DNA of 64,000 nucleotides from Crambe crambe. Taxonomy: Eukaryota > Porifera > Demospongiae > Poecilosclerida > Crambeidae. The stretch spans positions 6,138,001 to 6,202,000 of the forward strand of contig OZ004592.1 of the NCBI GenBank assembly GCA_963924555.1. Direction: 5' to 3'. This document shows, piece by piece, positions 7,818 through 28,430 of the stretch. The position numbers and the translations under genes are program-made. Position 1 is the stretch's first letter; every line of letters starts with the position of its first letter. Under the pieces are notes generated by a model. It searched no databases, was not told the DNA's origin, and was given only the letters and a program-made list of their open reading frames with translations.

Positions 7818-9123
7818 ATGAGGTGCAATCTTTTCAGCAGTAGTGAACTATGTCTTATCGTACTGCTTTCACTCAGTGTCATCCACTTTTGCAAACCTGC
7901 TGGAGTTCCTGGACTAAGAGGAAGGCTGGGCCCACCAGGTCCCAGGGGACAGAAGGGAAGCAGAGGTTAGTCGATAACTGAGCAGCATCACTAAGTAGTC
8001 AACCAGCTGTGGCTAGCTGCAAGAGTAAACTACAACTCCACTTCCATAATAGGACAACCTGGAGTGAAAGGAGCGAAGGGTCGTGGGATTAAGGGTGCAC
8101 AAGGGGATCTTGGCAATGCAGGATACAAAGGCCAGCCTGGACGATCAGGAATTCCAGGACCTATTGGAGGATTAGGAGTTAGAGGACCTACTGGAGAAAC
8201 TGGACCACCAGGGGAAGTTGGATCACCAGGACCAGTTGGACTACCGGGTGGAATGATAGGTCCCAATGGATCTCCAGGACCGATTATTATCCAACTTATA
8301 GGTAGCTATATGATAGCAAAATTGACTTTTGTAATGCAAACAAAAAGCTATTTCAGTGCTATATCATGCATAGGTGATAATGGGAGTCCTGGCCCTAGAG
8401 GACCACGTGGAGATGATGGAGAACCTGGAATTCCAGGGCAGAACGGTGCAGAAGGTGAGATGGGAGAGAAGGGAGAAAGAGGATTGCCAGGATCAGATGA
8501 AATTGTTAGAGGTATGAGCTCTAGACCCCAGACCCTAGCTCTACCCCTATTGCTGATGTTGAATTTCACTAGGTTTTAGCGGAACAGTTTATACTTCATG
8601 GGGTGAAGAGACTTGTCATTCACCTGGTGCTGTCATCCTTTATCGTGGCAGAACTATGGCTGGAAATGGAAGAACTCCGCTATGTATAGCAGAGGACACA
8701 CTTCAGAACTCTGAAAAAGAAAATAGTAGTGTGGTTGGATTGGAGGTCAATGATGACATGGCAGTGACAGTCAATAATGTTCAATACTTCAACAACGACC
8801 AAGAACGAAGTATTTTTAGGTGCACTGTATGCTTCCTTCATCATAAATCGAAAACTATCACCATACCAGCTTCTACTATCTGTCCAACTGGATGGAAAAG
8901 AGAATACAATGGTACCCTTTTGATGAATCCTGAACAAGAAATGGAACAGGTCTGTGTCAGGAAAGGAGGAGGAGGATCTAATGGAAACGTGAATGCTTTG
9001 TTCAGAATGAGTACACACCAACTTCTCAATAACACTTCCCCCCAAAATGCTGGATGTGTGAATCCAAGTGATTGCACAGGGACACAGCCTGGGAAGCTCA
9101 AGTGTGCAGTTTGCAGTCAATAA
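7818..9123 (+). CDS. Short-chain (spongin-type) collagen, gene B
   Basis: Second paralogue. Exons 7818-7965, 8053-8301, 8374-8511 and 8573-9123 join in frame to 361 residues. A signal peptide (LCLIVLLSLSVIHFC) is followed by Gly-X-Y repeats (GVPGLRGRLGPPGPRG and onward). The C-terminal domain matches gene A (YTSWGEETCH; RCTVCFLHHK; TICPTGWKREYNG; LKCAVCSQ). The second exon contains a Gly-X-Y run of over 70 residues. The start was chosen because it gives the signal peptide. As in gene A, the terminal domain is one exon, so the pair arose by whole-gene duplication. Confidence 0.9.
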
Positions 9124-9812
9124 CAAACCATCACCTTGCACTCATTATAACTCCCCAAAAATCTCATTCTATTTTCTGTAAAAAAAAAGTCACCGCATAT
9201 CTATTAATTTAGTTGGAAAAAAAACAACCCTATTTCCCAATTTGGCAAATGGTATTAATTTTTTGCTTCTGTAATTTATGTCAAATTGATGCGGGAAGAA
9301 TAATAATCCCTATAGCAATTCACTTTAGTCTAAGATTTATGTTTGGGTGAGCATGGAACCAAAAAAGGGACTGCTAGCTTGCTGTGATCTTGATTTGGGA
9401 AAGACCCAGAATAGTTCTGGTCTGTGCATGCTAGTGATTCACTCACACACCCTAACTACCAATGCCAGTCATCAAGACCAGCTAGCTAGCTATAATAGCA
9501 TCAAGTATTGCAGTGATCATACATAGCATCTTAGCTATAGCCTTCAAATCATGCAGTTAGTGTAGTGTAGTCACACACATAATATTATATGCATCGATTT
9601 GTCCTCAAGGTAGCCTGACATGCAGGGTGTGTGTGTGTTGTGTGATGTCTAGCTATTATTTATATTAAAATAGTCCTCCCACTTCTTCCTGTTGGAGACA
9701 AAGTGTGCTGCATCATGACAATGAACAAAAACAGAAGCACAGCAGCTACAGTATCAGTTACCGTTAGTTAGCTAGTTAGCTAGCTAGCTGGGAGATTGGC
9801 ACCATCATCATC
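9124..9812. other. Intergenic spacer between collagen genes B and C
   Basis: AT-rich, with many GCTAGCTA-type short palindromes (for example near 9480 and 9770) and a short GT run near 9630. No reading frame or RNA gene recognised. It should contain the promoter of gene C. Confidence 0.5.
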
Positions 9813-11611
9813 ATGTTAAGAGCTGAAAAGTTCATGTTTTTTAGCACTATTCTAATACTTGCTTTCATTTTCACATCCTCAACTACTGAGAGTGCACTTT
9901 CTCGAAATTGCTACTATTGCAAAGGTAAGTCCCTCACTAATTGCATAGAAGGATTAACTGAGGACGAGGAAGGGTTGGACAAGGGTTGGACAAGGGGATG
10001 AGGAGGGGAGTGCTCTAATAATTATTATGCAATAGTGAAAGTGTTTTGATAGCTAATTGGTTTGCATGATGTAATCATGAATTAGCTACATTGCATGCAT
10101 GCAAGTAAGTGCATGGCAATAGGGATAGTGATATTGCTGATGAATAACTCACAAGTTCATATTTCTACAGTAAAATTAATTGTGCTGCCAAGAGTGTTAT
10201 CTAGCTATACCATAATGATTTTAAGGTTTGAAGGGGGACAAAGGTGACCATGGATCACCGGGAAAGTGTTCGTCTTCAGGCTGTGCCAGTGCACTACCAT
10301 GCTCACTAGATGCACAGGCCATGCTGAAGCTGGCTGGTGTTGGCAATAAAGGCATCCCCTCCAGCAAATCACTGAGAAGTGTGATTGGGCGAGGAAAAGC
10401 ACTATTGAAACAAGTGGAGGAAGGAACCAGATCAATAAAGGATCTGAGCGAAGCAGAAAGTAACAACTTGTACGCATACTTGTTCTACAACAGCACTCTA
10501 TGTATTACTACCACCGCCTCAGGCATAGTAGTGCCAGATGGTGAGTTCTATAAACAGTGGTAGGTATACATATTATAGTTAATTGGCTGGCTGTCCTATT
10601 GATAGACATCAAAGGTGAAAGGGGAGACCCAGGGCCACCTGGAGAAGATGGAATGGATGGGATACCAGGGGAAAGAGGAGAGAAAGGTACAAGTTCGTAT
10701 GGAGCCTCATACCCAGGCCCTGCATGCTCTGGGTATGTGGCTAGTTTGTATGTAGAAACAGAACGAGGTCTTAGAAATAGTTTTACGATTTTTGCTTTCT
10801 ATAGGGGATACTGGAATGAAAGGTGAAAGGGGAGAGAAGGGAGACATTGGGCCCAAAGGGGACATGGGAATGATGGGAGACAAAGGAGAGCCTGGCCCTG
10901 TGGGAAACACTGGCGTCCCAGGACCAGTCGGACCTATGGGACCAGAAGGTATCAATGGCAACATTGGACCACAAGGTAAAGTGTACAGACACAACACTAA
11001 GTGGCTAATTCTAAAAGATTGCTGTACACAAAAGGTAGCAAAGGAGAGAAAGGGACCATAGGAATGTCAGGTATATCTTAGTATACTAGCTAGTCTGTGT
11101 ACAGAATTATCAAAGTGTTTTTTCTTCAGGAGTGACTTACACTAATTGGGGGGTGAATACTTGTCCTTCTGGTGTCACTCTGCTGTACAGAGGCAATGCT
11201 GTTCAAATTCATCACTCTGGAGTGGGAGTCCAGTGTTTACGAACCCAACCTCAAGTGAACCCCCATGGTGTTCCCATTCAACACGCCAAGAAGCTGACCA
11301 CGTTGCGATACACCAACAGATACAAAAGATCAAGCTTCATTCCCTGTGCTCTGTGTTACGTGCCTAGTCGTGTGGCCAAGTTCCTGAATCTAGGAGCAAA
11401 CTCCTGTCCTCGGGACTGGACGAAAGAGTTTGAGGGGTCACTGGGTACGGGTCTTTCTACAGAGGGCCTGTGCATCAATGGAAAATTCCTATCCAATATA
11501 CGTTGGACTCCATTTAAGAGTGTCAATGATTTGAGCATGGTTGAATCGGAGTGCTACCATTATCGGTCATGCAAGAAAGGGCCGATAGCCTGTGCACTTT
11601 GCACCAGGTAA
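9813..11611 (+). CDS. Short-chain collagen-like protein, gene C, with an extra Cys-containing domain
   Basis: Third tandem paralogue. Exons 9813-9924, 10226-10540, 10606-10686, 10805-10975, 11035-11070 and 11130-11611 join in frame to 398 residues. A signal peptide (FFSTILILAFIFTSS) and a short collagen start (GDKGDHGSPGK) are followed by about 90 residues of non-collagen sequence with cysteines (CSSSGCASALPC, later TLCITT) that A and B lack. Gly-X-Y repeats then resume (residues about 143-238), and the C-terminal domain (YTNWGVNTCP, PCALC, NSCPRDWTKEFEG, ACALC) closes the protein. The middle exons of 81, 171 and 36 bp are multiples of 9, as in collagen genes in general. The extra block is not recognised as a known domain. 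Confidence 0.88.
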
Positions 11612-11913
11612 CTAAGCAACACTTGAGCAATACATTATCTCTGTGTGTGCCATCAACAGATAAATTGTCACCATGTCTGTTCCTGTAGACTAGACACAAT
11701 ATGTGATACTGTCTTTTATAAACATTTTTGAAGTCTATTTCTAGAGTGGGTAATGGTTCCAGTGCTTGTCTATCCCATGATAAAAACAGCGTCACAGACT
11801 AAACAGAGGATATATTATTTTTTGGAAATGTCCATAAGCAGCAAAGATAGCACATAAATGAAAAGTTATGATTATGATTAAAGATAACTGTAGAGTTTGG
11901 CTGCATTCTCAGT

Positions 11914-14819
<2,906 letters not shown>

Positions 14820-14929
14820 CTAAACTCGACGATGACGATGTCACTAGGTCCAAAAGAATTTTAAATGATGCGCACCACATGATGCATTAATTTTATCAGG
14901 GGGTGTGGCATTTCAGTTTGTTGATTGAT
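14820..14929. promoter_or_regulatory. Bidirectional promoter, PSMD4 / DUSP-UBL kinase
   Basis: Only 110 bp separate the two start codons, so both transcripts must start in this gap. It contains GATGACGATGTCACTAGG, with a TGACG half-site and an inverted GTCA, resembling a CRE/ATF site. No TATA box. Co-expression of the two ubiquitin-linked genes is an inference. Confidence 0.6.
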
Positions 14930-17900
14930 ATGGCTTCTGAACCGTCCCCTCCAGATTATTTTACTCAGAAAGAAATCATTCATGGCCTTTTACAGCAAAG
15001 ATTGATAAAATATGATATATGGTAAGGTAGGTGAAACTATCATTCTCATCAGTAGCTCCTAGCTGGTTTGGTTGTGAATGACCACCATCATCATTCCTTA
15101 GGTACTTGGTAGATGTGAGATGGATGAAGCAATGGAAGAAATATGTTGGTTATGATAAGCGGGATCAGTCACTTGCTGGGGAAGCATCAGCACATCCTGG
15201 ACCTGTGGAAAACAGCTTTTTATTTCGGAGCACTTCCAAGCATCAAGGTATGTAGTCCAAGATTTAGAGTTGGGATAGCATCAGCAATACATACACATAC
15301 ACCTCTCATTAGCTCTTCTACTATGGTGGTTCTGCTTGATCAATATGAAATTATTATTACAGAACGTCTGTTCATCGATGATGTACCAAGATTATGCAAA
15401 TTCCTACGATCCATTTCAGAAAGATCAGAAGAACATGCAAATATTTCTGAAATGATAATCACTGACAACTCTTTGAATCAAACTTTATCTTCTGGAATTG
15501 TGTTACCTCTCACAAACGATTTAATGGCCATGAATGAAAAAGAGTTGGAGTATTTCCTTTTGCTGCAACAATCAGGTGAATAATAATTATGTATGGGATT
15601 ATAGTAATGTAATTCTCTAACATCTTGAGGTGTGATTCCCTTGCAGATATCTTGAAGGAACATTTAGAGGCGGAATTAGACTACTTTTTACTTCCACAAG
15701 AAGCTTGGGATAAATTGATCGCTTGGTATGGATTGAATTCCCTGTCAAGTCCCATTCCCAGGATGGTAGTGGAATATGGACTCTACATGAAACATTGCAA
15801 AGTGGAAGTATATCCACTTAAGTTCAAGTTATGTCTCCATCCTGCATCAACTCATATCAACATTAAATTTAGCCACTCCAATACTACAGGTCAGTAGTGA
15901 AGCAACTTGATTAAGTTGATAGCCAGCAAAAGCATTCCACATGTATGCATGTGACTATTTACTTTGGAAGCATACATTTGACATGATCGTAACTTTCAGG
16001 TTTTCTGGAAAGTATGGCAAGAACTATATTTGATATCTCCTCTGATAAGAAATCTCGAATTTGGCATCGCTACATGACAAGCTATGAATTGTTAAACTCT
16101 GGAAGTCAAACTGTGCAAGATGCTGGATTATACAATGGACAAGTATGTTAATGTGCTGAGACTATCCTTATGGGTAGTAGAGCTAAGTGTTGTTGGACAT
16201 GATAAGTACCCAGGCTTCTTCCTGAATGATTATGACATATCTGTACTGCAGATTGTTATGCTGGAAGTAATGAATGAAAATGGAACTTGGCCAAGAAGTA
16301 GTAATTCACCTGCTCGAGTTCAGGTAAACTTTCATACATTGGTAGCTACTTTTAATTAGTAATTTTTCCTTCTCCATAGGCTCCTGCACAAATATTACCA
16401 AAGGAGTTATTTTTAAGAGTCAAATGGATTACTGGTGATGGTGAAAGGAGTCGACCCAAAGAAGTAGCCTCCAATCATCAGGACCTCCGATCCGAATATC
16501 AAGAGAGCCAGGAAAAAGTTCAACTAACTCCACCTCAGGCTGAGAAAGAAAGAAAAATTTCTGAAGATGAACGAGTTTTGCTGAAGCAGAGAACTGATAT
16601 TGAAAGGAAAGACCAGCTGGAACAGATCATTCGAGAGAAAGATCAAAGGACTCAAGTCATAGAAGTAGCCTCTGATCATCAGGACCTCCAATCCAAAGAT
16701 CAAGAGATCCAGGCAGTAGTTCAGCTAATTCTAAGTATTGAGTCAAGGTTGCACAAGAAAGAAAGAAAAATTACTGAAGATGAACAAGTGATGTTGAATC
16801 AGAGGACTGATATTGAAAGGAAAGATCAGCTTATTCAAGAGAAGGAGCAGATGATTCAAGACAAAGACCAGATGATTCAAGATAAAGATCAGATGATTCA
16901 AAAGAAAGATCAAACAATTGAAGAGAAAGAACAAGAATTATGCAAAAGTAATCAAGAAATCGCTGAGAATAAGCAAGCTATCGGAGACTTGGAGTCAAAC
17001 TTGCAAGAAAAACAGCAGAAAATTGCCAAAAATGAACAAGTAATGCAAAGCCAAAGTGTCCAAATTGAAGCACTGAAGAAAGAAATTCAAGAGTTGGAGC
17101 AAGCACGTCTTGAATTTGAGCAACATTCCAAGGAGATGGAGCAGAGAGTCCAAGAAGTTGAACTCCGTTTGTCCACTTCTGATAATGTCTTTCAGGATCT
17201 TCTTCAACGTCTGACAGGTCAAATACCGCAAAGCCAACCAGCTTGGGTGATCCAGCGAGATGAGGTGGAACTTACTGATGAAGAATTAGGGGCAGGGGGT
17301 TGGGCCTCCATAAAGGTTGCCAATTTTCGTGGTCAGAGAGTAGCAGCAAAATGCCTCCATCATCAACTCATTTCTGCTCATAATATTAGAATCTTCACAA
17401 GAGAGATGAGCATGGCAGCTCAAGCCCGTCACCCAAACCTCCTCCAGTTCGTAGGAGCCACTATGGACAATAACCCCATCATTCTGACAGAGCTCCTCCC
17501 CACTAGTCTCAGACGCATCATGGAGGAAGGAACACGTCTCTCCCGTGCAACCATTAAGTCTTTATCCCTGGATGTGGCACGAGGTTTGAACTACCTCCAC
17601 TTGACCAAACCTGATCCCATTGTCCACAGAGACATCAGCAGTGCCAATGTGCTCCTTGAGGGTCATATTGATAGGAGATGGAAAGCCAAGTTATCAGATT
17701 ATGGATCGGTGAACTTTGTTCGCTACACCACCACAGCTGGTCCTGGAAACCCTCTCTATGCTGCTCCCGAAGCCAATGACCCAAAAAGACACTCTCCAAA
17801 AATGGACGTCTATAGCTTTGGTATCCTTCTGGTGGAAATGTGTTCGGGGGAACTGCCAGACAAATGTGAAGAGCTGATCCGCACTCATCTCCACAGCTGG

Positions 17901-18005
17901 CCAGAGATGGTGAGGATTGTGAGGGTGTGTCTTCATCAGGATCCCCAGCGTCGTGCCAGCATGAATGACCTCATCACTCAACTGGATGGTTTACATGTCG
18001 TGTAA
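14930..18005 (+). CDS. DUSP-UBL-coiled-coil-protein kinase fusion (USP4/15-like N-terminus, TKL-type kinase)
   Basis: Seven exons, 14930-15021, 15102-15247, 15363-15575, 15647-15889, 16000-16142, 16252-16323 and 16380-18005, join in frame to 844 residues. The N-terminus matches the DUSP domain of USP4/11/15 (WYLVDVRWMKQWKKYVGYD, HPGPVENS, then EHLEAELDYFLLPQEAW and LIAWYG). A UBL region follows (KHCKVEVYP, IWHRYM, TVQDAGLYNGQ, NENGTWPR), as in USP15. Instead of the peptidase there is a coiled coil (about residues 345-590) with heptads such as KDQMIQD. A kinase domain (about 595-844) closes the protein: GAGGWASIKVA loop, VAAK lysine, TREMSM helix C, HRDISSANVLL, DYG in place of DFG, and APEA. 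The catalytic residues are present, so it is probably active. I know of no named protein with this order. The third exon is symmetric (phase 1-1) and splits the DUSP domain. Confidence 0.92.
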
Positions 18006-18133
18006 CAATGTCATGACATTGAATTTTATATTTTTTGTAATAATTATTTTTGAGAATTGAATAACTCAGTTAGAAATAATTGTATCACAAAGACGGGATA
18101 AAAAAATTAATTTGCTATACATGTTTGGTCAGC

Positions 18134-20917
18134 TCAAAGTCCTTCGACTTCCTTATTGGCAGGGAACTCCACAGTGTACTGGATGATGATGGAGCGGGTC
18201 TCCTCTGCCTTCAGTTCCAGCTGCCATTCAATGTTATTCTGTGTGTTCAGCTGAGGATTAGGGGGAGGGGCTCCCTGTTTCTGCTTGCCGATCACTGGCT
18301 CTGTCAGTATGACCTAGCGAACAGAAAATAATGTGAAGGTTGTTTTCTCTAGCTTGTGTTGTGAATTGTGAAGGTTGTTTTCTCTATGTTGTGTTGTTAG
18401 CTGTATACTATTGCAAAATCACAAGAGAAAATAACCTTCACAATTCACAATACAACCTAGAGAAAACAACTTTCACAATTCACACACAATTCATGATGCA
18501 ACCTAAAGCTTTATGTCTCTTAGCTATCTTAGCTTGCTCTATACACACATACTCATCATTTCATACTTATACTGAACTTGACTAAAGCCACACCTTAAGT
18601 TTCTCATCTTCACTCTTGGGGATCTGGTCTTTGAAAGTGATGGTAACTGGTTCGGATCTTGAGTTGCTGATTTCGGTCACCTGCTTGTATCTGTAAGTGA
18701 CATTCTTGGAGATGATTCCACTCTCCTCTCGAAAGCGCTTGACAGGCTTGTATACCACCTTCACTGATGGGTCCACTCCTGAAATTGGAACCAAAATTCA
18801 GTCTGATGGTTTTCAAATAATGGCTGGTTCTCAATTTGTTGTTTTAGGGGACTACTGCTGTACTAGGCAGGCCACAGGGTTCTCCCCAAAGGGTGGTAGA
18901 GGTGCAACACCACTCTGATGGGGCCCATTTTTCTTTCATGTGATTAAAGCAATGTATTTTAATAGCCACAAGAATATCAAAATCCTTTAATGTGGTATTC
19001 AAGCACCATTCTGATCAGTTTCACTGGGGAGGACCCTGCTAGGGGACTTAGTATTGCACTGACTGACCGAGGGAGCAGCTGAATTCTTCATTGGGAGAGG
19101 TGGAGTTCAGGGTCGTTTCAGTGACATAGGATTGGTCCAGGAAGACATTGGCCGGTCCCGCTAGGAAGGGGTAGCTGGAATCATTGGTGACCTTTGCTCT
19201 CAGGAAAGCATGCTGGGCAAGTTTGGGGACTGTGTCATACTGGAATGTCGGCTTCAGATTAATAGTAGCCACATGAACCTAAAACATAATACACCCTTAT
19301 CATCATGCACATCTGTACTGTGTTTAACTGGGTTGCACCTTGTGGCCTGATTGGTCAGCAGGGATGCTAGCAGGAGTTGAAATCTCAAACACTGAGCTGG
19401 AGAGTCCTTCGGAAACCTGGGCTTGAGGTGCTTCGATGCTCAAGGAGGTCTCACCTCCGTACCCGTACGATGCCCGTGTCTTCTTCCTACATACAGTGAA
19501 TGATCAGTAAGTGATACATCCATAGAGAGAACAATGGTTACTTACCGCAAGGAGCCTTTGCGCGAGGGGTAGGCATTAGGAATCAGGCTCAGTTTGCAGG
19601 TATCAAGGCTTGGGGCAGAGCCTCCGATACTGGGTGTGGCAGTGGATAGGGACAACTTGGCATCCATCCTAGAATCAACAGGTACGGTTATGCATCCTCA
19701 TGGAGTCATGACATTTTTATAGCACATCCACTCACCAGTCCTCTCCTGTGTTCTGCTGGACCATGCCAAAGTAGCTCACTTCCATCGTGGTCTCAGCACT
19801 GGAGACACGCAGGTCATACTTAGGAGTCCAGCTGGCATTGGACACCACATACGAGACCAGGAGCTGTATCTCAGCCTCTTTCTGCACAGTTAACAGTATC
19901 CCAATTACCTGCTTCTTTACTGGCTCGGTTTTCTTGGTCAATTTTGGTTCCAATCTACTGAGTTGATTTGAGACCTGAAAGGTAGAATTATTCGGCAGAT
20001 CAGACCATTGACAATGACCTTCCACACTTCTAAAGGTTACCAAGGTTACCAGTATCAAACTACGTATTACCTCATTCAGCTCATCTTCAAGTTTCTTTTT
20101 CTCCTGCTCCTTTTCATGTTTTGAAATTTTGAGTTTGAGCGTCTTCTCTTCAAAAGTATCCATGAATTCAAACACCCCATCTGTGAAAAAGAAAGTGGAC
20201 TTATAGATTAGAGGATTTACCAAGGAGTGGTGTTCTCCCTACCGATGGTTTTGACTTCAAGAAGGTCAGATGTGTTGGCATCTTTTCCTGCTTTGATCAG
20301 ACCGTTGGAGTACGTGGTGAGGAGCTTACTCTGGGCAGAGAGGCGAGCTAGCTGATTGTCCATTGAGCCTATCTTGGTCTCAATATCAGCTACTTTCTTC
20401 CTTAACTCTTTCACTTCCTCACTAGCATTTTCTTGATCGTCAACTTCTTGAGTCACAGCAACTTCCTACAATGAACCCTTTGTTAATACAGTTTCATGTA
20501 GAAATCAAAATTTGAATTAGATTCCATGGCAGAAGGCATAGATTAAACTTGATAAGGGAGATGTTGTTTGGAACTTACTTGGAAGGATACTTCGGTGATA
20601 CTAGCAGGACCGATCCCATCCACACGAACAGAGTCCTTATCCAGGGACTTGGAGAGATTTTGGAGGACCACCTCCCCATCCCCTGCACCTAGCTCCACCT
20701 TCACAACACGGGTCACCTACAAAACGGTTACGCTTGGATAAACTCAGAGCTCAGTGCTCAAGCCACATCAAGTTACCTCTGCTCTGTCGGGATATACCAC
20801 AACACTCAAAACTGGGCAATCAGATATGGTCACTTCTCTCTTTCCTGCGTCCTTCTTCCCCTCTTCCCCGCATTCCGCTTGCTTCTCCACTTCAACTGCT
20901 CCTTTCTCTTCATCCAT
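18134..20917 (-). CDS. DUF4140/DUF4139 protein (F37C4.5-like)
   Basis: Ten exons (gene order): 20777-20917, 20579-20716, 20243-20465, 20071-20180, 19736-19974, 19546-19668, 19339-19486, 19068-19278, 18594-18778 and 18134-18313. They join in frame to 565 residues. The N-terminal DUF4140 part is the beta segment VYPDRAEVTRVV. A coiled coil follows (EELRKKVADIETKI-like, about residues 100-215), then the DUF4139 region (LLVSYVVSNASWTPKYDLRV, AKLSLSTATP, QHAFLRAKVTN, LLAGPANVFLD-like segment, VTYRYKQVTEISN, WQLELKAEET). The molecular function of the family is not established. No signal peptide is seen. The last intron holds a large hairpin. The 3' end faces that of the kinase gene 129 bp away. Confidence 0.93.
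18333..18476 (+). repeat. Long inverted repeat (53-bp stem, 38-nt loop) in DUF4139 intron
   Basis: Left arm 18333-18385 and right arm 18424-18476 are reverse complements apart from 4 of 53 positions. In RNA from the + strand, three of these become G-U pairs and one is a true mismatch. In RNA from the - strand (the host gene's strand) the three would be C-A mismatches. Each arm holds two copies of a motif like GTGAAGGTTGTTTTCTCT. It could be a small MITE-type element or the precursor of a small RNA from a + strand transcript. Confidence 0.85.
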
Positions 20918-21094
20918 GATTAGCCTTTGAGGAGAAAGGGTGGGGCACAGAACGAACGGAAGTAATTGTTAACGGTCGACGATAGCTATGCGCATGCGTA
21001 CACAGGATCGAATTCCGGATGTAAAGAAAACCACGTGTTGTAGTTAGCGTAGATATTATGATGCAAGCCTTGGCCTAGCACCTGAGCCTGAGGC
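20918..21094. promoter_or_regulatory. Bidirectional promoter, DUF4139 gene / GPAT gene
   Basis: A 177-bp gap between two divergent start codons. It contains TGCGCATGCGTA at 20989-21000, close to the NRF-1 consensus YGCGCAYGCGCR, and CGGAAGT near 20957, an ETS-type site. No TATA box. NRF-1 and ETS sites are typical of broadly expressed metabolic genes. Confidence 0.6.
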
Positions 21095-23747
21095 ATGGAA
21101 GAGTGGAGGAAGAGGAAGATAGAAAGTGTGTATGCAAAGTGGGAGAAGAAGGCGGGAAATTCTGGAAAAAGTAGTCAGAATGGGCATTCTAGGTAAGTTA
21201 AGTCAAAACCAGCAACTTGCAAAATGTGCAGCTGTTCAAGTGATTGTGTTTTGCAGGTCTACTAAGCCCCTAGTGATCAGATCATCACGGTACAACGGGG
21301 CAGCCTCCAGGTATAACCGGCAGAGACAGAAAAAGGTGAGAGCATAACTTTACCAATGCACATGTGGAGAAGTGCCAACTTCACGTTACAGGTTCATTAG
21401 AAAATTGGAAACTAGCAGTTGTATGTTTTGTATTGATTCATCCTGCCACACCTCAGAAAATGGCAAAGTCCTTGCTTTTCATTTATTACATGCAGGAATT
21501 TCTGGCGGTTGGTGGTTTTGGTGCTACAGCGACTTTTCTACCTTCACTTGGAGTGGACCTCAGTGCTCTCCATGCTGCTGCTAACCTCAAGTATGTCAGT
21601 ATTCGCCAGAGCTGCGAGCATTGCCTTCCTGTTAGCAGGGTACGTGAAATTGCACTCTGTATGTATGTGGTTCAACTGAACATGCTATGAAATTGTGCAT
21701 ATGTCTCCATTCAGTCCTAGTATTGTGTTGCTGTGTTAGTATTGTCTCTCCCATTGCTAACACTGCATGAACACTGCATGGTCAGTGGAATTGTTTATCT
21801 GTTAACACTGCATGATCATGGAATTGTCTGCATGATCATCTGCATGATCAGTGGCATCATCTTCTTCAAAGGCGATAGATAGTGTTGCTTGCACGCCACC
21901 TGTGTCATGAAACATGTAGCCTTGGTAGGTTTCTGGTGTAGTATGCTAATTAATACAGGTCAAAGGTCATTTTGGGGCCACTGTATACAATGCATGTATT
22001 GTATTGTTGTGAATGCTGCAGGTTGACTATCATCCCAAGCAGGTGACTGAAACTGCTCTCTACAACTGTCTAGTTGTAGACTCACGAAAATACGGGTGAG
22101 TCTGATGAGTTATTTGGTACATGTTGGAAGAGGAATTGGAATCTCTTCTCGGCTTTCTGATTTTCAGAGGCCATGGCACGATTTTCAATTATTCACCTTG
22201 TTCAATTAGTGTATTTGTTTGTTTATTTATTTATTTGTTTATTTGTTTGTTTGTTTATATCTGGATCGGCAGTGTTTTTGGTCGATGGTGTCCCTACATT
22301 TCACACTCCTGGAGAACAGTCATGAATTATTCCATGAGAGATATGCGCAAGGACATTCTCCAAGCCAAAAGGTCCTCTATGATAGACCTTGCGTGTAAGT
22401 TGTGTGTGACATTAGCGTTTCTTCTTCTTGTAGAATCAAGACTGCTATCGAGGATTCTGCCAAGACCACGACAGACAATGGTGAGGGTCGAAGGTGGTTT
22501 GTTTAGCATAGACATCAAAGATGAGCCAGCACTATCAATATGGTAAAAACACCATAGCAACAAGAACCACTTGCTGGGATAGGGTTCAAAGTACAGACTA
22601 TAATTGAATACAGATCTCAGGTGCTTCATTGATGTCTCATAATACTAAGGAAGTAGAATTAGGATGATAATGATAATACTTCCAGACCCTGTGCAGTTTG
22701 CAGCTTCTATGAAGGAGCAAGAGAAGAGGGCGCGTTTAGTTGTCAACCGCATGTCCTCTGGCGTGTATAATGGCTTGGTGAGGTAAGCAAGTTCAAAGGA
22801 GAGGGAGACTAGCATCTTTCCGCGACCAAATTTTCGATGTCGTGTTGTTTCATGGTTTTACCATGCTGCAGGATCGTGGCGTGGGCGCTGCTGTGGGTCT
22901 TTGGAAGACTATACAACAAAATCCAAACCCCAAAGAAACACATCTCAATGCTTCTGAAGGCGCAGGAGGTGAGACTGTAGTTACCTTATTCCCCAAGGGG
23001 GTAACAGTATACTTGCAAATGTTATTGACTTTTGTGATTTGAAGCTCACTCAGTGACTGATATTCAATATGCATCCACACACCCCCACCCACCCATTAGC
23101 GAGGAATACCCATTGTATTCCTGCCCTCCCACAAGAGCCACATGGATTACATCATCATGACCTTTATCCTCCTCAACATGGGGATCCACATACCTCGCAT
23201 AGCCGCAGGAGACAACTTGAGGATACCGCTGATCTCGTGAGTGCCCTCCCCTGCACCCTGTCCTTTGGTGACGGCTGTGTGTCTGCATGTGTACTAGATG
23301 GCTGGTGACTCATCTCGGTGGATTCTTCATCAAGAGAAAACTGGACTCGGCTTCTGGGAAAGATGTGCTCTATCGGAAATGCCTTCACGAGGTAAAATGA
23401 AAAGCTGCTGTCAAATATGGTCATTTCATTAGAGTCATTTGTAGTTCATGGAGCATTCGTTGTCTGAAGGAGAGAATATGGAGTTCTTTATAGAGGGCTC
23501 TCGTTCACGTAGTGGCAAACCCAACACCCCAAAGGCAGGTCTCCTCTCTATCCTGGTGGAGTGTGTCAGAGAAGGTGTGTGCTTCTATCAAAATGACCCG
23601 GGTGCATTCAAACAGACCCTTAATAGCACGGTTGCTCTGGGACTTATTTCAAAGCAAATTGTATGTAATGTTGTGTTGTCTGATGTGGAGATTTGTACCC
23701 AATTGAAGAATACATCTGTGGTTGTTTGAGAAGGGGCTTCTTCCTCT

Positions 23748-23801
<54 letters not shown>

Positions 23802-26049
23802 TGAGTCTTTCATTTGCTGGTCTTACAGGTATTGTGGCTGACATTTTGTTGGTTCCAGTTGGAATATCGTATGACATGCTCATAGAGAGAAACTTTGTAC
23901 GACATGAGCTCATGGTAAGACTCAGATGAAGGGGATTGGGGGTTGGGGAGTGGATTGAGCGTCCTTTCTCTTGTTTCTGTGTGATTCACAGGGAGGTAGC
24001 AAGAAGACAGAGACATTCTTCAAGGCCATGAAAGGAGTCTGGGTAATGCTTACTAAGAACACTGGCTCTGTTAGGATAGACTTTGCACAACCATTCTCTC
24101 TACAGGTCAGCCCAATAACTAGTTCATGCACAGCTGGGGGGATGGGGTGGGGATAACCAACTTTGTACCCACGTGTAGGAGTACCTTTCTTCCTCATTTA
24201 TTTCGAGTCAGTCTCAGCTAGAGGTAACCAATGCCAGCCATTATCGTTCTGTCCTCAGCCTGACGGACCTTGCACAAAGAAAAGTAGTCACTGCCCTCAG
24301 CCATCACATCATTCACGGTAAGAGCCCCTCCCCCCAAGTTTTCAATTGATAAATCTATTACGTCTCAAGACATGACACACTGTGCCAGCCTGATGCCAAC
24401 CAGCATGGTCTCTTTCCTGCTCCTCGCAAGACACAGAAATGTATTTCCTACACTTAGATGATATCACCATAGCAACTGTACTCCACTTTTACACATAGGG
24501 TGCAACTGTGACAGAGTTGATTTCTAGTTACTTGTGGCTGGAAGAAATAGCTTGCAAGAAGCAAAGGTGTGTGGTATTTTACAGAAAAGAAGTTTTCATT
24601 CATTCCATGCAAGTTCTCAAGCCATTTTCCTTTTGTCCTTAGATCTGTTGGTTTCACAGGAGAGGCGTCTGAAGCAGTTCACTATGCCCTCCATTACCTC
24701 CGACCCCTGCTGAACTTTGAGGAGAATGAAAGGACCAATGGGTTCATAGCGAAGGATCAGGTGATCCGCCCTCGTCTGAAACTACCCGATGTCTTCGAGC
24801 TTCTCCACCACATGAACCAAGTCACACCCATGTTGGCCCTGGAGGCTGTCCTCGGTATGATTCTAAGGAAGCTAGCTCTTTCATACATGGCATTGTGTTT
24901 GGAAAAGGGTGGTGTGTAATTGTGCAGTACACTTTGTAGCATGCAGTCTCCATAGTTCAATGGGTGGCAAGCTGAAAGCAACACCTCATAAAGCAGAGAC
25001 ATTGAATGTGGACAAAGACGAGGTGAGCTCCTGTAATTATGAGCCTTGTACTGGACAATTAGACTACACCACAATCATTCTGTAGCTGGTGGAGGTAGCT
25101 GTCTACCTGTGCAGAATCCTCTCCAGGGAGTTCATCTTTGCTCCTGTGAGTAGATATTTGGTCACCTGTCACTTGCTTTAAAGATTATTTTGATTGGTTC
25201 CCAGCCATGTGTGGACTTATGGCAGGTATTGACTGACACAGTAGACATACTAGTGAATTCAGACCTCCTCAAGATGCCACCTGAGGTGGGTTTTAAATTA
25301 ATGTACAGGGTTTTCCCTCTAATATAATTCTAGCATCAGCATTGTAATATTTCAGCCTAGCACATTTATCTCTGGGAGGAAATTGCCACGTCTCTTTGAA
25401 GATTCAGATGAGGAAGAAGGTGTAGTCTCCATCCAGTTAGAGGTATGTACCTTAACTAGGGGTTTCTGAGCCAATGACCAGGATTATTATATGACCAGGT
25501 GAACACAGAAGAATGGGCATTGGAGAGACTGGTGTGTCTGCAGAGCATACTGGACCCACTCCTGGAGGCCTACTGGAGCACACTCATAGCCTTACTCCAA
25601 ATGGAGCACACTATGATAGGTGACAACCTCTCCATGGCAATTAATATAAAAGTAATGTGTATAAATTCCTTTTAGAGTCTGAATTTCTAAAGCAGCTGCA
25701 ATCAAGTTTGATTCAGAAGGCAGAAAAGGATTTGTTGAGGAATGGTAAGGCAGAGTGAAGTGTGATTTCTTGCATACATAGTGGCTAGGAATAATTGAGG
25801 AATTGTAAGAGTATGATTCCTGGAGTGTACTAGCTAATATGTTGCTTACATAGTGGCTAGAAAGTGAAAATGATCAATTTTTTCTTTCTGGTGCCAGTGG
25901 AGAGTTGTTCCATGGACAGCCTGCGTAATGCCCTCAAGTGTATGATGGATTTGGGATATGTTGGCTACAAAGAAGGCTCTTTGCTCTACGTCACTGATTT
26001 TGATAAGCTCACAGAGACAGTGGAAAGAATAACAGTATTCAAAAATTAA
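21095..26049 (+). CDS. GPAM: Glycerol-3-phosphate acyltransferase, mitochondrial type (GPAT1/2-like)
   Basis: Acyl-CoA:glycerol-3-phosphate acyltransferase, first step of glycerolipid synthesis, at the outer mitochondrial membrane in the family. Clear core exons: 23100-23236 (FLPSHKSHMD, acyltransferase motif I), 23298-23391 (HLGGFFIKRKLD, motif II), 23445-23574 (FFIEGSRSRSGK, motif III), 23829-23914 (ILLVPVGISYD, motif IV) and 23992-24105 (IDFAQPFSL). The segment VFGRWCPYISHSW near 22270 corresponds to the Cys-rich segment in the N-terminal part. C-terminal exons run from about 24650 (YALHYLRPLLNFEEN) through LVCLQSILDPLLEAYW to MMDLGYVGYKEG and the stop at 26047-26049. The start at 21095 (MEEWRKRKIES) and the N-terminal exons before about 22030 are less certain. 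A CA repeat lies before the motif IV exon. Confidence 0.92.
23751..23799. repeat. (CA)n microsatellite in GPAT intron
   Basis: Pure CA dinucleotide tract of 49 bp, about 30 bp before the acceptor of the exon with acyltransferase motif IV. Confidence 0.97.
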
Positions 26050-26218
26050 CTTTATTCTCACTTTCATTTTTCATTAGTGTAACAAATCACTGTCATACAT
26101 GATATTGTTTGTTTACTGTGTATGTTAGTGTTGTTGTGTTATTCTTTATCATGTTAGTGTTGTTGTGTTATTGTTTATCATGTATTGTGTAAATCATGTT
26201 ATTGACATTATTCAAGTA

Positions 26219-27399
26219 CTAACTTGACAAAATGAAATCGACTGCTTTGACCAAGTTGTCCACTATTTTATCAGGCTTCACTTCACTGCTGAGTTCATCT
26301 TCAGCTCTGTACTTGCCTGTTCTGACAAGGATACCAGCTAAACCACACCCCTGGGCTCCACCCACATCGTTAACCAGGTCATCTCCCACCATAATAGCCT
26401 GGGGTGCAAAAATTATGAAGTCCAGCACTGGATGCATTCATTATTACGCTTACATTTTCTGGAGTTACTTGCAAGTCCTGGAGAGCACTAGTGAAAAAAG
26501 TGGGAGCTGGCTTCCCAATAACAATAGCAGAAAGACCAGTAGCAAACTGAAGAAGAAGAAGAAGGAAAAAAAACTTTTTTTATAGCATACATTTAAATCA
26601 TGGTACCTCTAGAGCTTTCATATATGGGCCCACATCCAGAGAGAGGTCACCTCCTTCCTTATAATAGCGACTACACTTCATATTCATATTCAAAACAACA
26701 AATCATCAAAAAATAAGACACAGTGTCATCTTTACCCTTTTCCAAGTGATATGAGGACACGCTCCTTTTTCTGTTGATCAATTAATAGCTTGAAGGCATG
26801 GTTTAGACTCTGGTATGTGAATGCATCAGTAGCATCCCCCAAGACCACACAATTGGGGTCAGAAGTGTCCACACCCTCATAGTCTGGCAGAGCATTAGGG
26901 TGTACTGCAAGAATTAGGTCATAAATCAAATAATTGGAGACACAAGAAAAAGGAAAAGGGTTGTCCATGAAAAAGTGTAAGTGGGCGTGGCCCATACCTA
27001 CTAGTATGTAGTACCTAGTGGTACTGAGAAAACACTCCATTCAGCCATTAACTTACCAAGGAGATAAGGTCGGAGATTATTCTCGACGAGATATTTCCGA
27101 CAGGCAGGTGCAGGTGAGTGGATCTCTTCTTCTGAGAGAGAGAAGCCATGCCTTTTCAGCTTCTCCATCAGTGCTCTCCTAGTGATGTTAGTTTCATTGG
27201 TGCAGAATTTCAATCTATATCCTGCTTCTCTCAACCTGAAAGAGTGTATAATTACTTGCAGCTCTCTTAACCATCTATATCTTCCTTACTTTTCAACAGC
27301 CTCTGGAGAACCTTCTATCACTCTTCCATCATCTTTACCGCTCTCATATAGAACTCCAGTGACATCCAAAAGCACTGCAGTTACTTTTCTGCAAGCCAT
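26219..27399 (-). CDS. LHPP: Phospholysine phosphohistidine inorganic pyrophosphate phosphatase
   Basis: HAD-superfamily phosphatase (the LHPP family acts on phosphohistidine and related P-N bonds and pyrophosphate). Six exons (gene order): 27290-27399, 27057-27235, 26736-26904, 26607-26670, 26454-26546 and 26219-26398. They join in frame to 264 residues, close to the usual 270. HAD motif I is LLDVTGVLY, with the nucleophile Asp and a second acidic position replaced by Thr-Gly-Val as in LHPP. Motif II is FCTNET. LHPP-specific stretches include LGDATDAFTYQSLN and LDVGPYMKALE. The motif III lysine lies in VIGKPAP and motif IV is MVGDDLVNDVGGAQ. The start gives MACRKVTAVLLD, matching the family N-terminus. 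The gene converges with GPAT (170 bp) and diverges from the FKBP gene (110 bp). Confidence 0.96.
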
Positions 27400-27509
27400 T
27401 ACTTACCAAAGGTCGTCAAGTTTATAACCTGTAACTCAATTTTCTGAATTGAGTTTATTTGTGCGACGATCTCACCGACGTCTAGGTCTATAAACAACGA
27501 GAAACAATC
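27400..27509. promoter_or_regulatory. Bidirectional promoter, LHPP / FKBP-like gene
   Basis: The 110 bp between two divergent start codons hold both promoters. No TATA box. A short inverted pair, CTCAATTTTCTGAATTGAG, is visible near 27434-27452. Confidence 0.5.
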
Positions 27510-28430
27510 ATGGCAGCGTTCGAAAAGACTGTGTTAACAGCAGGTTTAGGGGTCTACAAGCCGAATCGCCTGGCATTAGTTGCGGTGGATATAATAGGGA
27601 AATGGTGCACCTCGGATGGAGACGATGTGACCTTTGATAAGAGAGAAAATGTCACCATAGAATTAGGTAGGTGAAAAGGTTTAGAATGCATTCAAAGCTC
27701 AGGATTTATATATTTGTTTTTCTCTCTAGATTATGCTGTGGATGAGCTGAATCAATGTGTGGATGACATGATCACTACTATGAAAAGAGAAGAAAGATCC
27801 CAATTCCTGCTCTACAACAGTCACAAGCTTCTCTCTGACAGTGTCAGAGTCGAAGCCGATCAGGTGCCACCCATGGGAGCTGAGGTAATTTACATCATCC
27901 ACTTACATTCGTTCAATAGAGGGAAGGATTTATGGAACCTAAATGATCAAGAGAGGCTGGAAATAGCAAAGAGACACAAAGAACAAGGTTCCCAGTTCTT
28001 TAATGCTAGTGCTTTTCGATCAGCTGCTCTGAACTATTCCAAAGCCATACAGTACCTTGCTGCTGTTGACCCCGACACCCCTTACGAAGTGGACAGCCTT
28101 GAAGATTACGAGACAGAGATTTTAGCCACCAAAGCAGCTGTCTTACTGAATCTCTCTGCCTGTCAGCTCAAGTTCGAACAGTACGACCATGTTGTCAGCA
28201 ATTGCACAAAGGTGCTTGAGCTTGAAGCAGGGAATGTGAAAGCTTGGTATAGAAGAGCCAAGGCTTTGCTTGGGATGAAGGATTACGAGACTGCTCGGAG
28301 CGACTTGTTGAAGGCGCAAGAACTCGACCCCAGCAATCAGGCCATCATAGAACTATTGAAGACAGTGGCTGCTCAGGAAGCCACACACAATGCAAAGTAC
28401 AGAGATGCTTTGAAACCAATGTTCTCATAG
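27510..28430 (+). CDS. FKBP-like TPR co-chaperone with degenerate FKBP domain
   Basis: Exons 27510-27666 and 27730-28430 join in frame to 285 residues. The N-terminal half resembles an FK506-binding domain only loosely (CVDDMITTMKREERSQF, then the family-typical EVIYIIHLHSFNRGKDLW). The aromatic pocket residues of active prolyl isomerases are not recognisable. The C-terminal half has three TPR repeats (KEQGSQFFNASAFRSAALNYSKA; LLNLSACQLKFEQYDHVVSNC; VKAWYRRAKALLGMKDYETA), with the Asn/Lys/Arg carboxylate-clamp pattern for Hsp90 binding. It is most like the TPR half of FKBP4/5/6/FKBPL. Role as an Hsp90 co-chaperone is inferred from the TPR part. Confidence 0.88.

Follow-up and report, generated by a model that had tools for sequence, protein, structure and literature searches.

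In the genome of the sponge Crambe crambe we describe a gene, at 14930-18005 on the plus strand of the window (the whole 64,000-nucleotide stretch of DNA that was analysed, to which bare coordinates refer), whose predicted product we rate as a domain-shuffled TKL-like kinase with an unexpected head: a DUSP-UBL pair of the USP4/15 type, followed by a coiled coil and the kinase domain. The anatomy of the locus and comparison within the genome support the reading, put forward in a preliminary description, of a single fused gene, in which head and kinase would share one mRNA. The gene did not prove to be a lone fusion, as first supposed; its kinase belongs to an expanded family in the same genome, within which the DUSP-UBL is one of several kinds of head.

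Splice modelling on the sequence joined seven exons into 844 residues without a stop, ending in a TAA at 18005, with introns that are all GT-AG and 56-115 bp long; the seven in-frame exons lie where they were first placed. The parts of the gene and its two neighbours are as follows.

12471..14819, minus strand: gene for Rpn10/PSMD4, a proteasomal ubiquitin receptor; its 3' end may extend further left; head-to-head with the fusion gene
14930..15021, plus strand: exon 1, with the initiating ATG and the N-terminal stretch of the DUSP (residues 1-31)
15102..15247, plus strand: exon 2, first half of the DUSP (YLVDVRWMKQWKKYVGYD...; residues 31-80)
15363..15575, plus strand: exon 3, a 71-residue insert within the DUSP (213 bp, phase 1-1; residues 80-151)
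15647..15889, plus strand: exon 4, remaining half of the DUSP, then the linker between DUSP and UBL (KHCKVEVY) and the first part of the UBL (residues 151-232)
16000..16142, plus strand: exon 5, UBL (residues 232-279); both boundaries equal those of the USP gene on C8 in position and phase
16252..16323, plus strand: exon 6, last part of the UBL (NENGTWPR) followed by a linker (residues 280-303)
16324..16379, plus strand: intron 6 (56 bp), where two genes would need separating
16380..18005, plus strand: exon 7, coiled coil and kinase in a single frame of 541 codons
16779..17213, plus strand: long helix predicted over residues 134-278 of exon 7, a coiled coil in which seven-codon units (IQDKDQM etc.) recur almost exactly
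17277..17975, plus strand: TKL-like kinase domain (residues 603-835; Pfam)
18134..20465, minus strand: DUF4139 gene; its 5' end is not fixed; tail-to-tail with the fusion gene, bounding its 3' side

Three Pfam domains were found in the 844 residues, each above its curated cut-off: DUSP at 29-192 (5.1e-15; 56.1 bits against a cut-off of 29.3), Ubiquitin_3 at 210-294 (3.7e-21; 75.3 bits against 24) and Pkinase at 603-835 (1.1e-33; 117.2 bits). The top PDB matches of the head are the DUSP-UBL structures of USP4 and USP15 (1.5e-60 and 1.6e-60), and chance as a source of the head and kinase identities can be set aside on these sequence matches. The peptidase is absent, as originally noted: UCH has no match in the 844 residues or anywhere in the window, and the 98 UCH matches in the genome include two on C15, the sequence that holds the window, both about 4.4 Mb from the locus. 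The predicted protein is not a USP, since the split UCH peptidase with its Cys and His boxes is missing. Rfam gave no matches in window 9000-28000.

Minus-strand genes flank the locus on both sides. Among three fragments of the Rpn10/PSMD4 gene scanned, one matched VWA at 35.3 bits (cut-off 27), one matched UIM at 18.4 bits, below its cut-off of 21, and one had no match; the PDB match is Rpn10 (2.4e-17). Its ATG lies about 110 bp from that of the fusion gene on the opposite strand (14819-14930), and this interval is a possible bidirectional promoter shared with the gene for a proteasomal ubiquitin receptor. A run of about 113 GA units occurs within the Rpn10 gene region, at 12966-13191. Four fragments of the DUF4139 gene were scanned: 19732-20238 scored 55.7 bits, over the cut-off, another scored 21.7 bits, below it, and two had no match. 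The window also holds a short gene (9810-11620) for a collagen whose C-terminal domain is rich in cysteine and which looks like sponge short-chain collagen.

The N-terminus had been characterized as nearly that of USP15, and the motifs quoted in its favor are indeed present; the degree of likeness was overstated, as 103 of 215 aligned residues (47.9%) are those of human USP15 when exon 3 is omitted. With gap columns dropped and exon 3 left out, the head shares 104 of 214 residues (48.6%) with human USP4, 144 of 219 (65.8%) with the protein of a USP gene on C8, and 142 of 219 with that of a second such gene on C14. DUSP matches occur at four loci of the genome (C8, C14, C15 and C16) and Ubiquitin_3 matches at three of them, C8, C14 and the window gene on C15; UCH matches lie near the DUSP loci of C8, C14 and C16. 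The C8 USP gene has the sequence NTCFMN and a His-box sequence, and in Pfam the Cys-box regions of the C8 and C14 genes exceed the UCH cut-off, the C8 His-box exon reaches 17.1 bits (cut-off 23.9) and the C14 His-box exon gives nothing. These two genes are recent twins (dS 0.068, dN 0.023). The C14 copy (L051, G000:C14:6529001-6538500) reads NTSFMN, with Ser for the catalytic Cys, and has an altered His box; it is likely a pseudo-deubiquitinase or in early decay.

Intron positions connect the head with the C8 USP gene, the exon boundaries of the C8 and C14 genes having been chosen by splice signal and homology. Three introns are common to both in exact position and phase, at W31 (phase 2, the exon 1 donor), at residue 232 (phase 1) and after NGQ (phase 0); a fourth, which closes exon 2, is phase 1 in both and is offset by about three residues where the loop varies in length. 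The C15 head has no counterpart of the C8/C14 intron at PR|KVV. A retrocopy origin of the head was ruled out, because these introns, three exact and one near, are shared with the C8 USP gene. Between head and C8 gene, pS is 0.868 (saturated) and pN is 0.268, from which an old split and constraint on the heads follow; these values are pairwise and do not tell apart the branch under constraint. The comparison suggests that the head is an old, constrained duplicate of the 5' part of a USP gene.

Residues of functional interest in the head can be compared with those of human USP4, for which mutations that lower activity are reported at ten positions, M24, R40, F51, 88-92, E134 and Y136, in one study (PMC4243247). 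The head is identical at six of these (R40, E90, L91, D92, E134 and Y136) and conservative at two (M24L and F51Y), as is C8; positions 88 and 89 are changed, and there C8 is also non-human, with other letters. The linker KHCKVEVY is retained as in human, and corresponds to a reported SART3-binding site (PMC7935551). One stretch of 12 residues in the genome matches a SART3-type motif of 19 positions, a thin match at 28.4 bits (cut-off 21.4).

The reading of the N-terminus as a plain DUSP-UBL was right as to the domains and missed the insert that exon 3 places within the DUSP. The 71 residues of this exon fall in the loop that precedes the LKEHL helix, and the DUSP score rises from 56.1 to 64.7 bits when the exon is left out. 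Exon 3 has no Pfam match, and at the sensitivity used the genome contained no second copy, the only match being to itself; it is missing from the genome's other two DUSP-UBL genes, C8 and C14, as modelled, and the length of the loop that receives it also varies between C8/C14 and human. Since its phases are symmetric (1-1), skipping would restore an ordinary DUSP, and exon 3 is possibly a cassette exon. As to a possible origin of exon 3 by duplication of exon 4, the protein ends of the two are alike (EKELEYFLLLQQS / EAELDYFLLPQEA), with one of 2000 shuffles reaching the score in a comparison picked post hoc; for the DNA of the two exons, 953 of 1000 shuffles did so. Coding potential was scored with a codon table built from the C8 head and from relatives of the kinase, a choice that favors the 14930-18005 gene: the true frame was the best of six in six of the seven exons, exon 2 being beaten by one minus-strand frame. 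When 213-nt frames were drawn at random from the window (both strands, genes included, GA runs dropped), 868 of 20000 were open and 207 of these were as coding as exon 3 or more, so that intron noise would reach this state at a joint rate of about 1%; the coding look of exon 3 is thus fair, supportive and not conclusive.

The coiled coil and TKL-type kinase with HRDISSANVLL, said to follow the head, were confirmed by repeats, Pfam and PDB ranking. Repeats with a spacing of 21 nt correspond to seven-residue repeats in exon 7, and a structural model of the exon, of poor quality (mean pLDDT 63.1), predicts a helix of 145 residues. The kinase keeps its catalytic residues (Lys, Glu, HRD, Asn, DYG and APE), and none of them varies across the 19 rows aligned (19 of 19). 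Among the best 60 of 266 PDB matches, the first eight are to plant CTR1 (best, at 2.7e-28), MAP3K9, TNNI3K and MLK4, which are TKL kinases; CSK, a tyrosine kinase, follows at 1.5e-19. The ranking, as distinct from a kinome-wide tree, supports a TKL-like assignment of the kinase domain.

Interrogation of the genome with the kinase domain gave at least 149 scored matches (377 candidates). Besides the gene itself, there are 54 relatives, 41-56% identical (44 of them 47-56%), whose matches span at least 246 of the 255 positions of the query; stops occur in some. A coiled coil followed by a kinase in one frame is common to the window gene and its same-genome relatives. Heads were sought at eight of the 54 near-full-length relatives, and Pfam supported them in five: Kelch in three, ankyrin in one and a CYLD-like CAP-Gly in one. 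Pfam recognizes Kelch exons upstream, on the strand of the kinase, at L056 and L057 (C14) and L063 (C3), and at L060 (C13) a single frame of 697 codons encodes ankyrin repeats together with the coiled coil and kinase. At L064 (G000:C13:3884501-3888000) a CAP-Gly domain precedes the coiled coil, scoring 46.7 bits as spliced (cut-off 26.5) and 27.4 bits for its second half alone, which shares a frame of 469 codons with the coiled coil and kinase; its best PDB match is the CAP-Gly of CYLD (1whl, 1.2e-07), with CLIP-115 (2.1e-04) and others weaker. L061 (G000:C6:8134001-8137900) has a head of the same kind, whose first exon is interrupted by a stop and whose CAP-Gly second half, at 15.6 bits, falls short of the cut-off; nine places on C6, at 8.12-8.23 Mb and including L061, match the first head exon of L064. 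The head of L065 (C14) is Kelch-like by eye and has no Pfam match, and the single exon scanned at L062 (C9) gave no head match. The head-kinase junction is phase 0 in the window gene and in the C13 CAP-Gly gene, and phase 1 in the two Kelch genes read.

A kinase tree of 35 of 37 rows (the partial rows L036 and L050 being left out) places the C15 kinase outside 30 other rows with support of 93/88, less than the mark of 95, and three CAP-Gly rows with the outgroup further out than it (100/99); its exact place is unsure because its end branch is long. Other members of the family vary further. Other C13 kinases are ankyrin-headed as read by eye, among them a kinase at G000:C13:2745192-2745938 (L031, L073) that ends an open frame of 8104 codons, the sampled middle of which reads as ankyrin repeats, and another ankyrin-type coiled-coil kinase in a frame of 3566 codons. 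Arrays of related coiled-coil kinases, some copies with stops, occupy G000:C14 at 4.1-6.4 Mb, where L056 and L057 lie. The Kelch-headed L067 (G000:C3:8380846-8381592) has HRN instead of HRD and no DYG, and is likely a pseudokinase.

From these features we propose, and hold to be somewhat the better bet, that a targeting head derived from USP4/15 brings a kinase assembled by its coiled coil to partners of the USP4/15 type. An old duplicate of the 5' exons of a USP gene, introns included, would have been joined upstream of a coiled-coil and TKL-like kinase exon. The DUSP-UBL would bind partners also bound by the USP, the long heptad-repeat helix would bring two or more chains together, and proximity would activate the kinase, so that the partner or its complex would be phosphorylated where the USP would remove ubiquitin. 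Recruitment to USP4/15 partners is plausible by analogy with the human proteins, whose DUSP or DUSP-UBL partners include RIG-I, Rheb, BRAP and NBS1, with SART3 bound through the linker (PMC7935551). The isolated DUSP-UBL of USP4 is reported not to bind ubiquitin (PMC4243247), so that ubiquitin is not necessarily what the head would direct the kinase to. The assumption of partner binding comes from human proteins that are 48% identical, and the 71-residue insert of exon 3, which could disturb the DUSP, speaks against the proposal. So do the thin SART3 match, the altered HRD and missing DYG of the C3 relative, which show that not all members of the family are intact kinases, and the poor exon 7 model. 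We infer transcription as one mRNA, partner binding, kinase activity and substrates; oligomerization and proximity activation would follow the pattern of other TKL kinases.

This proposal presupposes one intact gene. The locus might instead hold two neighboring genes, one short and encoding the DUSP-UBL, the other encoding the kinase, that were misjoined across intron 6, and in keeping with such an arrangement, retention of intron 6 leads to an in-frame stop 11 codons on. A new kinase start between 16323 and 16580, which the preliminary description had named as the mark of two genes, was not found: a TAG in the exon 7 frame immediately precedes 16380, and the earliest in-frame ATG of the exon, at 16791, is its codon 138, so that a kinase-only product would need to begin there or in an unseen first exon. 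Much of the 137 codons before this ATG looks coding, being the first copy of a coiled-coil unit that is duplicated in frame, with its second copy deeper in the coiled coil. The intergenic space would be 56 bp, without AATAAA, and the Rpn10 and DUF4139 genes bound the locus on its left and right. AATAAA does not occur on the plus strand of 14819-18200, intron 6 included, where ATTAAA is found at 15862 and AATAAT at 15579, 15582, 18039 and 18075; its lack near intron 6 is weak evidence, because none follows the final stop at 18005 either. In relatives from the same genome, the kinase shares its frame with ankyrin repeats or with part of a CAP-Gly (the 697- and 469-codon frames above). On the start codon, intron length, poly(A) signal (a weak point) and neighbors, we rejected two genes as the likeliest reading and consider it very improbable. 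Still less credible, and hardly to be entertained, is a fusion without function or a duplicate in decay: decay does affect paralogs of this genome, as in the Ser for catalytic Cys of the C14 USP and the stops in some kinase and CAP-Gly matches, whereas this gene has 844 codons without a stop, GT-AG introns, the conserved kinase residues and a head with pN far below pS.

If the gene is intact and fused, its head might serve in other ways. It could bind the animal's own USP4/15 enzyme, not its clients, as a docking or decoy module, the kinase regulating the enzyme in trans and phosphorylating it. The USP4 study describes a human DUSP-UBL that activates the peptidase via its insert and can act in trans, with fitted KD values of about 100 uM for binding to the catalytic domain and about 44 uM for binding to the insert (PMC4243247); eight of the ten compared positions are kept or conservative, and the C8 USP gene, with a Cys box above the UCH cut-off and a His box below it, would provide a target. 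The human affinity is weak, so avidity from the coiled coil would be needed, and positions 88-89 are changed, with exon 3 entering just before the helix that leads to their loop; we consider docking unlikely, at about one chance in five, and the main rival to recruitment. The same insert and substitutions could mean instead that the DUSP no longer binds USP partners, leaving a scaffold or relic while the kinase is directed otherwise. Against such a loss, pN is far below pS despite saturated synonymous divergence (pairwise with C8), the insert occupies a loop whose length differs between C8/C14 and human, and exon 3 can be skipped in frame; a relic appears more doubtful than docking. Recruitment of the kinase to USP4/15-type partners remains our preferred account. 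A wider conjecture, to which we give little more credence than to docking, is that in this animal lineage one class of kinases took over recognition parts of deubiquitinases (the USP4/15 DUSP-UBL, and the CYLD-like CAP-Gly of C13 and C6), so that complexes that a deubiquitinase would ordinarily handle, or the deubiquitinase itself, would be seized and phosphorylated; such proteins would be kinase counterparts or integrated decoys with swappable heads sensing signals, perhaps immune ones.

The closest counterparts of the head are USP4, USP15 and USP11, which share its DUSP-UBL order, linker and sequence, with three exact introns and one near in the comparison with C8; they have UCH, whereas the window gene has instead a coiled coil and kinase, the 71-residue DUSP insert and no PR|KVV intron. 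Among the matches listed, the closest solved kinase domains are those of plant CTR1, MLK/MAP3K9 and TNNI3K. TNNI3K has ankyrin repeats and MLKs have leucine zippers, and none of these kinases is known to carry a USP-type DUSP or UBL. The order DUSP-UBL-coiled coil-kinase was not named in the literature searched, which comprised titles and the beginnings of abstracts from part of the literature; within that scope nothing contradicted the view of the preliminary description that it is undescribed. Nearer at hand, the Kelch, ankyrin and CAP-Gly kinases of the same genome (C14, C3, C13 and C6) have the same kinase type after an in-frame coiled coil, with other heads. It is of interest that a second head on this kinase type is also deubiquitinase-like: that of the C13 relative best matches CYLD, a deubiquitinase with CAP-Gly, as a likeness only, since there are weaker matches to other CAP-Gly proteins and descent is not implied. 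In vertebrates, deubiquitinase recognition and phosphorylation are linked through separate proteins; if expressed as one protein, the window gene would couple a deubiquitinase recognition module directly to phosphorylation. A kinase family with varied heads, two of them deubiquitinase-like, would offer a natural experiment on recognition by DUSP-UBL and CAP-Gly in proteins that lack the peptidase, and on how such animals diversify intracellular signalling.
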